Assembly (NCBI GenBank): GCA_903887845.1
Contig: CAISRC010000009.1
Location: forward strand, 1-51,423
Length of the DNA stretch: 51,423 bases
Direction of reading: 5' to 3'
Source: an uncultured Chlorobiaceae bacterium
GTDB lineage: Bacteria > Bacteroidota > Chlorobiia > Chlorobiales > Chlorobiaceae
Every line of letters begins with the position of its first letter. The stretch's first letter is position 1. Shown here one piece after another: positions 19,171 through 51,423 of this stretch. A program made the translations under genes and the position numbers. The notes under the pieces were generated by a model, which was not told the origin of the DNA, searched no databases, and worked only from the letters and a program-made list of their open reading frames with translations.

Positions 19171-21357
19171 TTAGTTACTTTCTGCGTTGCTTTCTTTTGG
19201 TTTCTCCTGGTCAACGGCCTTGATTGAGAGGGCAAACTTGGTTTTTCCGGTACGGGGATCCTTGCGGACATCCACCAGCTTGACCTTTACTTTCTCTCCG
19301 ATTTTCAGGTGATCACTCACCTTCGTCACTCTTGTGGTCGATATCTCGGAGATGTGGACCAAACCGTCAGTTTTGGGAAGGAATTCCACAAAGGCGCCAA
19401 GCTCATCACGAATATCTCGCACCTTGCCAATATAGATGGTGCCGACCTCAGGTTTGGCGGTAAGACTTTTGATGGTGGCCAAGGCAGCGTTTGTGCCCTC
19501 ACTGGTCGAGCAGGCGATGGTGACGGTTCCGTCGTCATCAATATTGATTTCAGCGCCGGTCTCTTCGGTAATGCTGCGAATGGTCTCTCCACCTTTTCCG
19601 ATGATCATGCCGATACAGTCAACAGGCACCTTGATGGTAGTCAGTTTTGGAGCAAAGTTGGCAAGCTCGTTTCTGGTTGAGGAGATTGCTTTTTCCATTT
19701 CGCCCAGAATGTGAAGCCGTCCTCTGCGTGCCTGCTCAAGAGCGGTTTCAAGTATGTGATAGTCAAGCCCGTCAATCTTGATGTCCATCTGGCAGGCGGT
19801 AATACCGTCTTTGGTGCCTGATACCTTGAAATCCATATCTCCGAGGTGATCTTCGTTACCGAGAATATCAGAGAGCACAGCATAGGATGATCCTTCCTTG
19901 ATCAATCCCATGGCGATACCGGAGACTGGTTTTTTGATTGGTACACCGCCATCCATGAGGGCGAGTGTTCCACCGCAGACCGAAGCCATCGATGAAGAAC
20001 CGTTCGATTCAAGAATGTCAGAGACGATGCGGATGGTGTAGGGAAACTCCGCCTGTGAAGGGGCTACCATCTTGATGGAGCGTTCGGCAAGATTGCCGTG
20101 TCCAATCTCCCGGCGTCCGATGCTGCCAAGCCTTCCGCACTCTCCAACGCTGAAAGGCGGGAAGTTGTAGTGGAGGAAAAATGTTTTGTCAGCACTGTTG
20201 GTCAGTGTATCAACTGATTGAGCATCTTTTTTTGTGCCGAGAGTAATGGTGACAAGCGCCTGCGTTTCACCTCTGGTGAAGAGGGCGGAACCGTGGGCTC
20301 TCGGGATGATGCCAAGTTCAATACTGATAGGGCGTACCTGATCAAGCGCTCTGCCGTCAAGTCGTTTTGCATCGTCAAGAATCATGTGGCGCATCACTCT
20401 TTTTTCAACCGCATGAATCTGCTCTTCGATGATATGCGGGTTCAGGCAGAGTGCTTTCGAAGCGTCGGCCTGAATATCCTCGCTGCTGATTGCTGCTTTG
20501 AAGTGTTCAAGGGTTGCATCGATGATTTCATGGTAGATGAGGGCGGTTTGATCTGCCCGTTCTTCCTTTGCAAGCGGCGTATAGGCGAGCTCTTTCAGAC
20601 GTGTTTCGCAGAGCCCGCGAATCACTTCGGTAAGCTCGGCTGGTATTGCTGTCGGGGTAAAGGGGCGCTGCGGTTTTGCTACTTCCTCAGCAATTTCGCT
20701 TTGAAGAGCACAGAGTTTGCGGATTGCTGTATGACCGAACCGGATAGCTTCAACCATTTCGGCTTCGGAAATCTCCTTCATTTCGCCTTCAAGCATACAA
20801 ATGGTATCATTGGTGCCGCCAATACAGATATCAATGTCACTTTCCAGCAGCTCGTTGATGTCAGGATTGATGATATAGAGACCATTGATTCTGCCTACTC
20901 TGACTTCGGACATAGGGTTCCGGAAAGGAATGTCGGATACCATAATGGCGGCAGACGCAGCCAGTCCACCGAGTACGTCGGCATCATTGACCTGGTCGGA
21001 AGAGATAACGGTTATGATGATCTGGGTTTCATAAAGGTAGCCGTCAGGAAAAAGCGGCCGGAGGGCACGATCGATAAGTCGTGCTGAAAGAATCTCTTTT
21101 TCGGAGGGACGGCTTTCACGTTTGAAAAAACCTCCGGGAAACTTGCCGGCAGCCGAATATTTTTCGCGGTATTCCACCTGGAGCGGGAAGAAGTCCTGGT
21201 TGGGTGGAGGCGTCTTTTTGCTTGATACAACCGTTGCAATCACCATAGTGTCGCCAAGGCGGACAACTACAGCACCGTCGGCCTGTTTTGCCATTTTGCC
21301 GGTCTCAATCGAGATTATCTTGCCCTGACCAAGATCAATTGCTTTGTTAACAATCAT
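19171..21357 (-). CDS. pnp: Polyribonucleotide nucleotidyltransferase (PNPase)
   Basis: This 728-aa phosphorolytic 3'-5' exoribonuclease takes part in mRNA decay and RNA quality control. It shows two RNase PH-like cores (first near residues 10-220, second near 310-550, with GNGS-type segment [20 protein letters not shown] near 455), a KH domain ([12 protein letters not shown] near 580), and an S1 domain ([12 protein letters not shown] to LVHISEI near 640-690). The open frame extends 17 codons upstream, but [20 protein letters not shown] is the family N-terminus, so I start at 21357. There is no clear Shine-Dalgarno. The gene is closed by a strong terminator at 19123. Confidence 0.97.
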
Positions 21358-46624: not shown

Positions 46625-47371
46625 ATGGACGCGGAACATTCCGAAAACATTGTCTATGGCAGAAATGCCGTACTTGAGCTTCTTCAGCAAAAGCCTGAGA
46701 GCATCGAGAAAATCTATTTCCAATTTAAAACCTCTCATCCGAAACTCAAGGAAATTGTTATCACCGCAAGGCGACTGAAGCTTGTCAGCGGCAAGGCTCG
46801 CCTTGAAAAACTCTCACTGATTGCCGGGACCACGAAGCATCAGGGTGTTTGCGCTCTCATCAGCACCGTCACTTACTATTCGCTGGAGGAGGTTCTGGCC
46901 ACCCCCCGAAATACTTTTCCGATTTTTGTTGTACTGCAGGGTCTGGACGATCCGCACAACATCGGAGCAATTATCAGAACAGCCGAAGCAGTTGCAGCCG
47001 ATGCCGTTGTGCTTGTTGAAGGAAAGGGGGCGCCGGTTAATGCTGTTGTTCACAAAGCTTCTGCCGGAGCACTCTCCCATATTAGAGTCTGCAAGGTAAA
47101 AAGCCTTGTGCGCGCCCTGGAATTTCTCCACCAGTGCAATGTTCAGATTATTGCGGCTGATATGGATGCAGAACTGAATTACACCGATGCCGACATGAAA
47201 AAAGCCACAGCAATTGTGCTTGGTATGGAGGGAAGCGGGCTTGCACCTGAAGCAGTGAAATTCTGTGACCATGTTGTTCGGATTCCAATGGCTGGCTGTG
47301 TCGAATCCCTGAATGTTAGTGTGACGGCAGGCGTGCTGCTCTATGAGGCAATGCGGCAGCGACTTGCGTAA
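46625..47371 (+). CDS. rlmB: 23S rRNA (guanosine-2251-2'-O)-methyltransferase, TrmH/RlmB family
   Basis: This 248-aa SpoU-type methyltransferase has the N-terminal L30e-like substrate domain (IVYGRNAVLELLQQKPESI) and the knotted C-terminal domain with the three motifs: DDPHNIGAIIRTAEA near 105, IVLGMEGSGLA near 195, and RIPMAGCVESLNVSVTAGVLLYEA near 220. Within the family, RlmB is the best match from N-terminus and length, but a tRNA or other rRNA target is not excluded. GAGG lies five bases upstream of the ATG as its Shine-Dalgarno. gcvH follows after 101 bases. Confidence 0.88.
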   Translation: MDAEHSENIVYGRNAVLELLQQKPESIEKIYFQFKTSHPKLKEIVITARRLKLVSGKARLEKLSLIAGTTKHQGVCALISTVTYYSLEEVLATPRNTFPIFVVLQGLDDPHNIGAIIRTAEAVAADAVVLVEGKGAPVNAVVHKASAGALSHIRVCKVKSLVRALEFLHQCNVQIIAADMDAELNYTDADMKKATAIVLGMEGSGLAPEAVKFCDHVVRIPMAGCVESLNVSVTAGVLLYEAMRQRLA

Positions 47372-47472
47372 CTTGCCATGTACTCTGATTTGAAGGGATA
47401 CCAAAAAATATTACCTTGTTTCATTACAAGATTTGCCAAGCAGACTTCATCAACACACTTTCACCTTCTGCC

Positions 47473-47856
47473 ATGACTATTCCTGAAGATCTCCGCTATA
47501 CCAAAGACCACGAATGGATTAAACTGCTTGAAGACGGCAGTACCGCCCTGGTCGGCATTACTGACTTTGCCCAGTCAGAACTTGGCGATATTGTTTTTGT
47601 AGAGTTGAAGACTGCAGGAACCAGCCTTAAAGAACATGAGATTTTTGGAACCGTCGAAGCGGTAAAGACCGTTGCCGATCTTTTTGCGCCGGTTGCCGGT
47701 GAAATTCTTGAGCTGAACCCACAGCTTGACATCGCTGAAATTGTCAATCAGGATCCCTACAACGCAGGCTGGCTTGTCAAGATGAAAGTTGCCAATCCTG
47801 CATCCGTCAATGCTCTGCTTGACGCAACGGCATACCGCCAGTTGACGGGGGAGTAA
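47473..47856 (+). CDS. gcvH: Glycine cleavage system H protein
   Basis: This 127-aa lipoyl carrier shuttles the aminomethyl group between GcvP, GcvT and the dehydrogenase. It begins with MTIPEDLRYTKDHEWIK and has the lipoyl-Lys motif GTVEAVKTVADLFAP with the modified Lys near residue 65. Length is typical. The frame is open 19 codons further upstream without family similarity. gcvPA starts three bases after its stop, so the two are in one operon. gcvT is not in the window. Confidence 0.95.
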   Translation: MTIPEDLRYTKDHEWIKLLEDGSTALVGITDFAQSELGDIVFVELKTAGTSLKEHEIFGTVEAVKTVADLFAPVAGEILELNPQLDIAEIVNQDPYNAGWLVKMKVANPASVNALLDATAYRQLTGE

Positions 47857-47859
47857 CTC

Positions 47860-49197
47860 ATGCCATTTATAGTCAATACTGCAAGCGAAAGAGAGGAGAT
47901 GCTCAAGGCCATCGGCGCAAACTCCTTTGATGATCTTATTGCTGATATTCCTGAAGAGATTCGGCTGAAAAGAGCTCTCGATATTCTTCCCGCCTCCGAT
48001 GAGCTCCAGGTGCGCAAACTCCTTGAAGGGCTCGCTTCAGCCAACCGCAGCACCTCCGATTATGTCAGCTATCTTGGGGGAGGGGCTTATGACCATTTTA
48101 TTCCCGCAGCCATTAAAACCATAGCCTCCCGCAGTGAGTTTTATACGGCATATACTCCCTATCAGGCCGAAGTCTCACAGGGAACCCTGCAGGCCATCTA
48201 CGAATACCAGAGCCTTATCTGTCGACTCTATGAGATGGATGTCACCAACGCTTCGATGTACGACGGGGCAACAGCTCTTGCTGAAGCGGTTTTGATGGCC
48301 ATGAATGTCACCGGACGCAGCCAGGTTGTGGTGGCAGGAAAGCTGCATCCCTGGAACAGCTCTGTTCTGAAAACCTATCTTGAAGCTTCGGGTCATAACG
48401 CCGTTCTTCAGAATGTTCTTCAGGATGGGGTCGGCGATATTGCTGCGTTGAAGGAGCTGGTCACTGAGAGCGTGGCTGCCGTGGTTGTTCAGCAGCCAAA
48501 CTTTTATGGTTGTCTCGAAGACGTTGAGGCCATTGGAGCTGTTGCGCATCAAAAAGGGGCGCTCTTTGTTGTCTCCGCCGATCCGCTCTCTCTGGGAGTG
48601 CTTGCCGCTCCCGGAAGTTACGGAGCAGATATTGCTGTGGGAGAAGGCCAACCGCTTGGCAATCATCAGAATTTCGGTGGCCCATATCTTGGTATTTTCA
48701 GCGTCAAGCAAGCGCTTGTGCGCAAAATTCCGGGCCGTCTGGTTGGCATGACGAAAGACCGGGATGGAGAAGATGGTTTTATTCTTACCCTGCAGACTCG
48801 CGAGCAGCACATCCGGCGCGAAAAAGCCACTTCGAATATCTGCAGCAATCAGGCGCTTAATGCACTTCAGGCGGCAGTCTATCTTTCACTTCTCGGTAAA
48901 GAGGGACTTCAGCAGGTTGCCGCACAATCAGCACAGAAAGCACACTATCTTGCTGGAAAAATTGCAGCTCTTCCAGGATTCTCCCTGAAGTTCTCGTCGC
49001 CATATTTCCGTGAGTTTGTTGTTGAAACACCAGTTCCTTCAGCTCTTGTGGTTGAGCGGATGCTTGAGAAAAAGATTTTTGCAGGCTATGATCTTGCTGC
49101 TCACGGTGAAACCGGCTTGCTTGTTGCTGTTACGGAGAAGCGGACTCAGGAAGAGCTTGACCGCTTTGTTGAAAACCTTGGATTGATTGTTGTATAG
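47860..49197 (+). CDS. gcvPA: Glycine dehydrogenase (decarboxylating) subunit 1
   Basis: This 445-aa protein is the N-terminal half of a split glycine dehydrogenase P protein. It shows [14 protein letters not shown] near residue 70, [21 protein letters not shown] near 95, and [13 protein letters not shown] near 130, all of the GcvPA family. The PLP-binding Lys lies in the partner subunit GcvPB, which is not present: the next gene is dapA on the other strand. The enzyme cannot work without it, so gcvPB is presumably elsewhere. A convergent hairpin follows at 49211. Confidence 0.95.
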
Positions 49198-49210
49198 AAG
49201 GGTGAAGCTA

Positions 49211-49242
49211 TTTCAGCTCCCTGCCTTTGCCGGGAGCTGAAA
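49211..49242. terminator. Terminator between gcvPA and dapA
   Basis: TTTCAGCTCCC (49211-49221) pairs with GGGAGCTGAAA (49232-49242), an 11-bp stem with a 10-base loop. It lies between the convergent stops of gcvPA (49197) and dapA (49253) and has A/T-rich flanks, serving either strand. Confidence 0.7.
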
Positions 49243-49252
49243 AGATATCTTT

Positions 49253-50143
49253 TCAAATGAGCCCGAGAGTCTTGAGTTCCTGATCGATAATCTGCTTGTT
49301 CTCCTGTGAGAGAGGCACAAGCGGCAGCCGATAGTTTTCCTCAATCATGCCCATCCGTGCAAGAGCATACTTTACCGGTACAGGGTTACTCTCTATAAAG
49401 TTCAGCTTTAACAGCTTGCGATAGCGTCGGTTGATGGCGCGTGCCTCAACAAGATCACCCCTTCTCATTGCCTCGACCAGTTGCTTGATCGGTGATGGAA
49501 TCTGGTTGGCCGCCACAGAAATCACTCCGTCTCCTCCCATAGCCATAAAAGGCAGAATCAGTGAATCCTCTCCGGTCAGCACTGAAAAATGGTCGGGACG
49601 CTCCTCAAGCAGCTCCGATATCTGGCTGATATTCTCCGAAGCCTCTTTGACCGCCGCAATATTTTCAAAATCACGGGCAAGCCGCAGAATCGTTGCTGCC
49701 GATACATTGCTGCCGGTTCTTCCCGGAACATTGTAGATAATAATGGGCACAGAAACAGCCTCTGCGATATGCTTGTAATGCTGATAAATACCCTCCTGAG
49801 AAGGCTTGTTGTAATAGGGAGCAACCGACAGAATCGCCGAAGCGCCCGCCTTTTCAGCATTTTTTGCCAGTTCTACCGCATGTTGTGTATCATTGGTGCC
49901 AGCGCCGGCAGCCACCATTATTTTTCCTCCAGCCTCATCCTGTACCGTGCGGATAATCTCAAACTGTTCATTGCCGGAAAGTGTCGGCGACTCACCCGTC
50001 GTTCCACAGGTTATGATGATATCGGTTCCAGCTTCAATATGAAACTGTACCAGCCTTCTCAACGCATCGGTATCTATCGACCTGTCCTGCCTGAACGGAG
50101 TTACCAGTGCAACGGCGGATCCTGAAAGGTATCGTGTGGACAT
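49253..50143 (-). CDS. dapA: 4-hydroxy-tetrahydrodipicolinate synthase
   Basis: This 296-aa Schiff-base aldolase condenses pyruvate with aspartate semialdehyde in the lysine and meso-diaminopimelate pathway, which also feeds peptidoglycan. It has [10 protein letters not shown] at the N-terminus, [11 protein letters not shown] near residue 46, the catalytic Tyr in [11 protein letters not shown] near 136, and the Schiff-base Lys in IAAVKEAS near 164. Length is typical. Its 5' gap of 272 bases is shared with the divergent secreted protein gene. Confidence 0.97.
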
Positions 50144-50415
50144 ACTTTTTTATCCCAGTGTTAATGAAAATCGTTTTATCAATCTGAAGAACTCGTTCCC
50201 CTTCGTCGATCATTCTTGCTCTTATCGAGAATATACTGAGAAAGGGTATTTGTAAAACCGATTTTATCGTAAAAGAGTTTAATAAAGAGAAGAAGGAGAA
50301 GAGACCATATCAATAATGCGCCTTGCGGTTTCAGCATTGAGTTTTTTTTGTTATTTTTTTCAGCGAGTGTTAGTGTTTATTATTTCGCGTAAAAAAACTA
50401 AATCAAGGAAGGGAA

Positions 50416-50814
50416 ATGCGTAAAATTCTTGCCTTGCTTTTTGTTCTGATTTCCTTTTTTCCTGCCTTGCATTTTGCTGTGGCAAAGAATATTACCATTG
50501 AGTCACCATCTAATGGAGAAAAGGTTGACGGTGAGTTATTCGTGAGTGGGACTGCACACAAAGCCAAAGAGGTTTGGGTTATTGTTCATCCCAGTGAAAC
50601 TCCGGATTATTGGGTACAACCGACAGTTACTCTTAAGGATGAGCTCTGGGAAGTGCAAATTTCCATTGGGAGGCCAGGTACTATTGACAATGGCAAGCAT
50701 TTTGAGATAATGGCCATTGCAGATCCTTATCAGCCGTTAACCGAAGCTCAAGTTTTTAATGAATGGCCTTCAGCTCGATCAAGATCACAAGTTATTTCAA
50801 TAACGAGAAAATAG
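50416..50814 (+). CDS. Small secreted protein of unknown function
   Basis: This 132-aa protein has a signal peptide (KILALLFVLISFFPALHFAVAK) and a mature part of about 110 residues that looks like an all-beta domain with hydrophobic strands, KNITIESPSNGEKVDGELFVSGTA near the start and WVIVHPSE. The 'ESPSNGEKVDGELFVSGTA' pattern recalls Ig-like Gmad2/spore-germination-type beta domains, but I do not recognise it firmly. AAGGAAGGG lies just upstream of the ATG. The gene is at the edge of an accessory region. Confidence 0.75.
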   Translation: MRKILALLFVLISFFPALHFAVAKNITIESPSNGEKVDGELFVSGTAHKAKEVWVIVHPSETPDYWVQPTVTLKDELWEVQISIGRPGTIDNGKHFEIMAIADPYQPLTEAQVFNEWPSARSRSQVISITRK

Positions 50815-51018
50815 ATTCAAGTCCGACGTTACTGTTGGCTCTATCCACTTTGCTTCCAACTCCTCTTCTTTGCCTCGTCCTTGCTGCTTATATAACCACT
50901 CGGGCAACAGGCCAAAGCGCTCTTGAAGCTGCCTTTCCTTAAGCCGGGTGTGCCTCCGACGGGCAATATATTTTATAAGAACTGAATTTGATCTATATTC
51001 AGTCTTGTGATGACATCT
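50797..51018 (-). pseudogene. Possible remnant frame of 73 codons lacking a start codon
   Basis: The minus strand stays open for 73 codons with a protein-like, charged sequence (for example RLKERQLQERFGLLPEWLYK, then GKEEELEAKW), but it has no suitable start codon after the upstream stop at 51019-51021. Its end overlaps the 3' end of the secreted protein gene. It may be a decayed gene fragment, or an accident. I do not recognise the family. Confidence 0.3.
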
Positions 51019-51036
51019 TTACGAAAAGGATCTACA

Positions 51037-51288
51037 ATGAAACTATCAGAAAGGGTTCGCCCGATTTCATGGCTTAAATCTCATGCAGCCGAGATTGTAA
51101 GGGATTTTGAAGAGAATCGGAGCCCGCTTATTGTTACCCAGAATGGGGAAGCAAAAATGGTTGTCATGGACATTCGTACCTACGAAGAGCAGCTTGACAC
51201 AATGGCTTTTCTGAAACTCATCAACATGGGCAAAAAAGAGATTTCCGAAGGGAAATTTCAAAGTCCGGAAGATTTTTTTGCTGACTGA
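51037..51288 (+). CDS. Type II antitoxin, Phd/YefM family
   Basis: This 83-aa protein has the family N-terminus for DNA binding (RPISWLKSHAAEIVRDFEE), then the strand-rich NRSPLIVTQNGEAKMVVMDIRTYEE, and a C-terminal toxin-binding tail (MGKKEISEGKFQSPEDFF). Family members normally sit just before a RelE/ParE toxin, and the complex represses the operon. Here AAGGA lies seven bases before the ATG at 51037, which decides the start against an earlier ATG at 51007. No toxin follows: the stop TGA directly abuts a repeat array at 51291. The stop may even be supplied by the inserted end, so the last residues are uncertain. Confidence 0.85.
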   Translation: MKLSERVRPISWLKSHAAEIVRDFEENRSPLIVTQNGEAKMVVMDIRTYEEQLDTMAFLKLINMGKKEISEGKFQSPEDFFAD

Positions 51289-51385
51289 GTATTCCGGTGA
51301 AAGTGTACCACTGATTCCGGAGCAAAGTGTACCAGTCATTCCGGGTGAATATGTACCACCGATTCCGGAGCAAAGTGTACCACCA
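51286..51385. mobile_element. IS21-like element end (left part of a mobile element running out of the window)
   Basis: The sequence right after the antitoxin stop consists of four tandem 23-24 bp units starting ATTCCGG and ending GTACCA(C/G). Multiple short repeats of this style, with the recurrent GTGTACCA, are typical of the ends of IS21-family elements, where they bind the transposase. The left terminus may begin at the TGA of the antitoxin stop. No transposase gene is visible before the window ends. The assignment is from recall of the pattern. Confidence 0.55.
51291..51385 (+). repeat. Four tandem 23-24 bp direct repeats
   Basis: Units are 51291-51313, 51314-51337, 51338-51361 and 51362-51385. 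Units 2 and 4 share ATTCCGGAGCAAAGTGTACCA; units 1 and 3 carry GGTGAA after ATTCC(G). All share ATTCCGG and TGTACCA. The alternation of two sub-types suggests duplicated paired transposase-binding sites. Confidence 0.85.
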
Positions 51386-51423
51386 TTTTCATGCCAGATT
51401 TGGTGTTAGAACTTACAAAATTA

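Follow-up and report, generated by a model that had tools for sequence, protein, structure and literature searches.

What ends the antitoxin gene at the edge of this contig, and what became of its toxin? The window, i.e., the whole stretch of 51,423 nucleotides analyzed here, is the entire contig C9 of a draft genome of an uncultured Chlorobiaceae bacterium (G000; 144 contigs, 98.77% complete). Near its end, a reading frame of 83 codons (51037–51285) followed by TGA encodes a protein that matches the Pfam family PhdYeFM_antitox over residues 6–76 (E = 1.1e-14) and also NCBIfam TIGR01552. The gene is therefore a Phd/YefM antitoxin whose stop codon directly meets four repeats, as the original prediction had described it. 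Its ATG at 51037 is common to all 19 sequences of our alignment (A1), and the records encoding close relatives of it are labelled Chlorobiaceae or Chlorobium. We consider it highly likely that a multi-copy IS21-family element of about 2.6 kb, carrying istA and istB, was inserted between antitoxin codons 83 and 84 and thereby split a Phd/YefM–toxin operon; the exact junction, the identity of the element, the native gene order in relatives and the truncation are observed directly. The features are listed in Table 1.

Table 1. Features at the 3' end of the window.
Feature	Position	Strand	Basis
Truncated Phd/YefM-family antitoxin of 83 residues (native length 88); its TGA stop, by its sequence, comes from the IS element	51037..51288	+	PF02604, TIGR01552, identity to L009
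istB-side terminus of IS21-family element, runs off contig end	51286..51423	-	10 genome places; 133/138 identical to L149 end
Terminal repeat 1 (ATTCCGGTGAAAGTGTACCA)	51291..51310	+	Sequence; GTACCA core at 51305
Terminal repeat 2	51314..51334	+	Exact motif match
Terminal repeat 3	51338..51358	+	Exact motif match
Terminal repeat 4	51362..51382	+	Exact motif match
Last 11 bases of istB (end of ATA codon, ATT, TTG, TAA)	51413..51423	-	Reverse complement TAATTTTGTAA = IstB ORF end in L149

The native form of the gene is seen in locus L009 (genome G053), which is colinear with window positions 47036–51285 over 4250 unbroken bases (96.6% identity), the match ending exactly at 51285. Over the 249 bases of the antitoxin frame the two do not differ. 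Past the junction, L009 continues with codons for LEKEG and a TAG stop, and a toxin frame follows, the final G of the TAG being also the first base of its GTG start codon. Judged from this comparison, the stop codon TGA of the window is the first three bases of the element, and the native gene is five codons longer. The suggestion that the TGA may belong to the terminus of the element was thus borne out; relatives with an uninterrupted, repeat-free locus differ from the window in both the position and the codon of the stop. Two further loci, L010 and L012, are also colinear upstream, across a region with a gene (49253–50143) that we take, from its protein sequence, to be dapA. Also upstream of the antitoxin, a 132-residue ORF with a signal-like N-terminus (50416–50814) had no match in Pfam or NCBIfam. 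An 85-base intergenic stretch (50852–50936) has a counterpart of 79% identity in L013, located there behind the toxin and not ahead of the antitoxin; part of the stretch is also present on contig C136 of G000.

A ParE-like match follows the antitoxin in 50 of 54 loci. The exceptions are L010, in which the toxin is lost after 8 codons, L062, with a broken antitoxin, L050, whose contig stops 100 bases on, and L045, where the matched stretch starts at residue 6, so that the assigned start was off the gene start. Among the 18 loci with the label Chlorobiaceae or Chlorobium, 16 combine the toxin with an 88-residue antitoxin. When 61 genomes were searched with both proteins, ten others carried a close antitoxin (at least 77% identity), nine of them with the toxin beside it, the exception being G019, to which L010 belongs. 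The L009 toxin matches Pfam ParE_toxin (E = 7.6e-9), stays under the cut-off of the Txe/YoeB model, and has no confident solved relative by sequence. The toxin is thus normally the next gene and is cut off here by the element, in line with the separation first proposed. As no cognate toxin lies directly downstream of the antitoxin in the window, this is a broken toxin–antitoxin (TA) locus and not a TA pair.

The element was identified from its ends. Its terminal block in the window recurs at ten places of the genome, the window included, with 137–138 identical bases. All ten of these istB-side copies, oriented alike, begin with TGAGTATTCCGG next to ten different flanks, which sets the first base of the element at 51286; the window stops inside the element because the assembly breaks at the end of C9. 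Within the block, units of the form ATTCCGG...TGTACCA (starts in Table 1) have their GTACCA cores at 51305, 51329, 51353 and 51377. A scan with the repeat motif (at most 3 mismatches) returned three exact matches in the block and three matches with 3 mismatches elsewhere, compared to a mean of 0.45 and a maximum of 3 matches in dinucleotide shuffles. Eight other contigs end in a related five-repeat block beginning TGAGCACACCGG, representing istA-side junctions. Direct repeats are therefore found in both ends of the element, four on the istB side and five on the istA side, as is typical of IS21, and both termini begin with TGA.

Comparison of istB-side with istA-side flanks revealed seven pairs sharing direct repeats of 5–7 bp, i.e., the target duplications TCAAC, ATATTCC, GTTAAC, GCCTCC, GACAAGG, TTGAAT and CTTCGGT. 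Random flank positions gave a mean of 0.154 pairs of at least 5 bp and a maximum of 3 in 2000 trials. Left without a partner were C9 (the window), C143 and C27 on the istB side and C32 on the istA side. The far side of the insertion in the window is absent from the assembly, leaving its own target duplication, istA/istB and the toxin out of sight. As errors are typical of collapsed repeats such as the one at the end of this contig, the antitoxin might have been joined in assembly to a repeat end from elsewhere. Such an artefact is barely credible: ten junctions have the same first base of the element and different flanks, seven of them are confirmed independently by target duplications shared with opposite-end contigs, and divergence from L009 starts exactly at the first base of the element.

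The body of the element is known from relatives, the block being matched in 47 of 86 family genomes searched. The contig of L149 contains, in this order, istA-side repeats, a 524-residue IstA, a 271-residue IstB, and an end of the type seen in the window. In this relative's copy, IstA exceeds the cut-off of the IS21 transposase model NF033546 (E = 6.1e-66) and IstB matches the IS21 helper ATPase model NF038214 (E = 1.1e-66), with Pfam in agreement. Both the recurrence of the terminal block in the genome and its position next to istB and istA in L149 agree with the prediction of an IS21-type end. Transposase genes had been expected to follow; indeed, the window closes with 11 bases that correspond to the end of the L149 IstB frame, which has its stop at 2455–2457. 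Copies with both ends measure 2599 bp in L151 (from the end positions), 2598 bp in L153 and 2577 bp in L154; the latter two encode proteins of 524 or 523 residues plus 271 residues. A 5 bp target duplication flanks the L153 copy, and none flanks that of L154. The L149 copy lies beside or inside a gene for an Mrr restriction endonuclease, with a frame open from the end of the element (L149:2497-3237; G069:C102). In the window's own genome, an IstB search returned eight matches, among them a degraded IS21 copy on C122 in which the element end adjoins an IstB remnant, and a domain search did not find an rve domain. Apparently, the body of the element was not included in the genome bin. Given the layout of the relatives' copies, istB and istA beyond the window would lie on the minus strand, pointing at the antitoxin, with the istA-side end facing the toxin.

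With regard to the course of events, the element would have entered a chromosomal Phd/YefM gene between codons 83 and 84, in inverse orientation to the gene. As the element has TGA at the start of either terminus and entered at a codon boundary, translation would stop immediately, giving 83 instead of 88 residues. With the element in between, the ParE/RelE-type toxin gene would no longer be served by the operon promoter, and its translation would no longer be coupled to that of the antitoxin. In L009, the toxin start codon overlaps the antitoxin stop; the codons severed here contain the likely ribosome-binding site of the toxin, GGAGAAGGAGGG, which would thus stay with it. The toxin gene may therefore persist on the far side of the element, equipped with its ribosome-binding site but silent or weakly expressed, while the antitoxin would bind it less well and the locus would be decaying.

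The expected weakening of binding can be narrowed down by means of PfiA, the only solved chain matched by the antitoxin (E = 1.7e-8). The five missing residues fall outside the Pfam domain. Position 84, occupied by L or M throughout the 21 relatives L009–L029 (read by eye) and lost by the truncation, faces L75 of PfiA in the alignment. According to the part of PMC13048266 available, the residues of PfiA helix 3 touching the toxin PfiT are S67, V68, L71, L75 and F79. Since the positions facing L75 and F79 are gone and those facing S67, V68 and L71 are retained, the truncated antitoxin probably binds the toxin more weakly, while binding is perhaps not absent. PfiA–PfiT of phage Pf4 is also the nearest solved relative, with a Phd/YefM antitoxin before a ParE_toxin-family gene, as in the chlorobial relatives; in contrast, the window antitoxin lacks the last five residues and no toxin follows it.

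Neither the toxin nor the downstream DNA of L009 was found in the window's own assembly, by DNA search for both and by protein search for the toxin. With the same protein query, matches were obtained in 25 of 61 family genomes, and thus the search works; the assembly, however, is incomplete. One explanation is that the toxin was deleted, with recombination between IS copies or an adjacent deletion joining the element to unrelated DNA and leaving a true orphan antitoxin. The missing toxin and downstream sequence are consistent with such a deletion, as are the lack of a partner for the window junction and for two other istB-side junctions, and the loss of the toxin after 8 codons through another event in L010 (G019). 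However, short pieces flanked by IS copies easily drop from draft genomes, and 4 of the 11 sites inferred from junctions lack one side. Furthermore, the downstream DNA of the colinear genomes G019 and G033 matches contig C39 of the window's genome. By synteny, the next stretch therefore probably lies on C39; as a second multi-copy repeat forms the end of this contig, a short intervening contig with the toxin could well go missing. This end comprises 140 bases, is inverted at the opposite end of C39, and recurs with 97–100% identity on five other contigs and as an 89% copy on a sixth. With respect to a deletion joining the flank of C32, the unpaired istA-side junction, to the TA locus, that flank had no match on the TA contigs G033:C4, G053:C96 and G019:C42. 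Deletion of the toxin is therefore possible but rather unlikely. Synteny suggests that the toxin lies in a short gap between the IS21 copy of the window and the C39 repeat; as a short piece between two repeats is easily lost from an assembly, retention seems more probable than deletion.

The C39 repeat (L173:1-140 and 19789-19928) is perhaps the end of another insertion sequence. The same contig (L173:14777-19882) as well as L012 (4655-7825) contain a reverse transcriptase (RVT_1) beside a NACHT protein with an FGE-sulfatase-type C-terminus, loci that presumably resemble a diversity-generating retroelement.

A second antitoxin without toxin is present in L010 (4249-4330; G019:C42), where only the first 8 toxin codons remain before unrelated DNA takes over. 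Its stop codon is altered, with the frame extending to 109 residues, and no IS21 end was found at the break of the toxin. The retention of this antitoxin, the intact frame in the window with its identity to L009 over 249 bases, and intact pairs in nine related genomes would be compatible with the anti-addiction role suggested in the original prediction, by which the antitoxin would counter related toxins, here of the ParE type and arriving on incoming elements. Such a role has been proposed for orphan antitoxins, but, in the part of PMC7354431 available, is not established as a common use. We regard it as very unlikely here: the insertion may be very recent, so that an intact frame tells little; the residue lost at position 84 aligns with L75 of PfiA, which contacts PfiT in the accessible section of PMC13048266; and no relative of the cognate ParE toxin was detectable in the genome itself. 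In the L010 antitoxin, no more than two changes are private, of which one is silent and the other is not; they are too few to test selection and do not show it. Equally doubtful is the broader reading that IS insertion and small events repeatedly turn the chlorobial Phd–ParE pair into a retained antitoxin protecting against incoming intact relatives, for which the window and L010 (G019) are the cases among the 18 chlorobial loci.

Disruption of the operon by the element, the reading that we prefer, involves well-known components. Like other IS21-family members, e.g., IS5376, the element combines IstA and IstB with repeats spaced 23–24 bp and target duplications of 5–7 bp; the portion of PMC10122671 at hand gives a separation of 23 bp and 5 bp duplications for IS5376. 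In contrast to the usual description of at least two end repeats in that portion, four and five are present here. Orphan antitoxins are common, with 2253 occurrences in a Klebsiella survey (PMC7192599, available in part). As in the cases described there, the frame is kept without an adjacent toxin and the upstream context is conserved, whereas in the window the event that caused the separation can be pinned to the exact base. Among the papers listed in literature searches, none was, by its title, on Chlorobium TA loci with IS elements or on IS21-disrupted antitoxins. Overall, we see here an unremarkable case of a TA locus disrupted by an IS element, in a green sulfur bacterium, with nothing beyond the kinds already described. 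It also calls for caution: where an orphan antitoxin is annotated at the end of a contig, an insertion sequence may simply have interrupted the assembly there. The locus shows, at single-base resolution, how a type II TA operon can be split by an IS element in a cell that survives the event: almost the entire antitoxin is encoded ahead of the insertion point, and the terminal TGA of the element supplies the stop codon.
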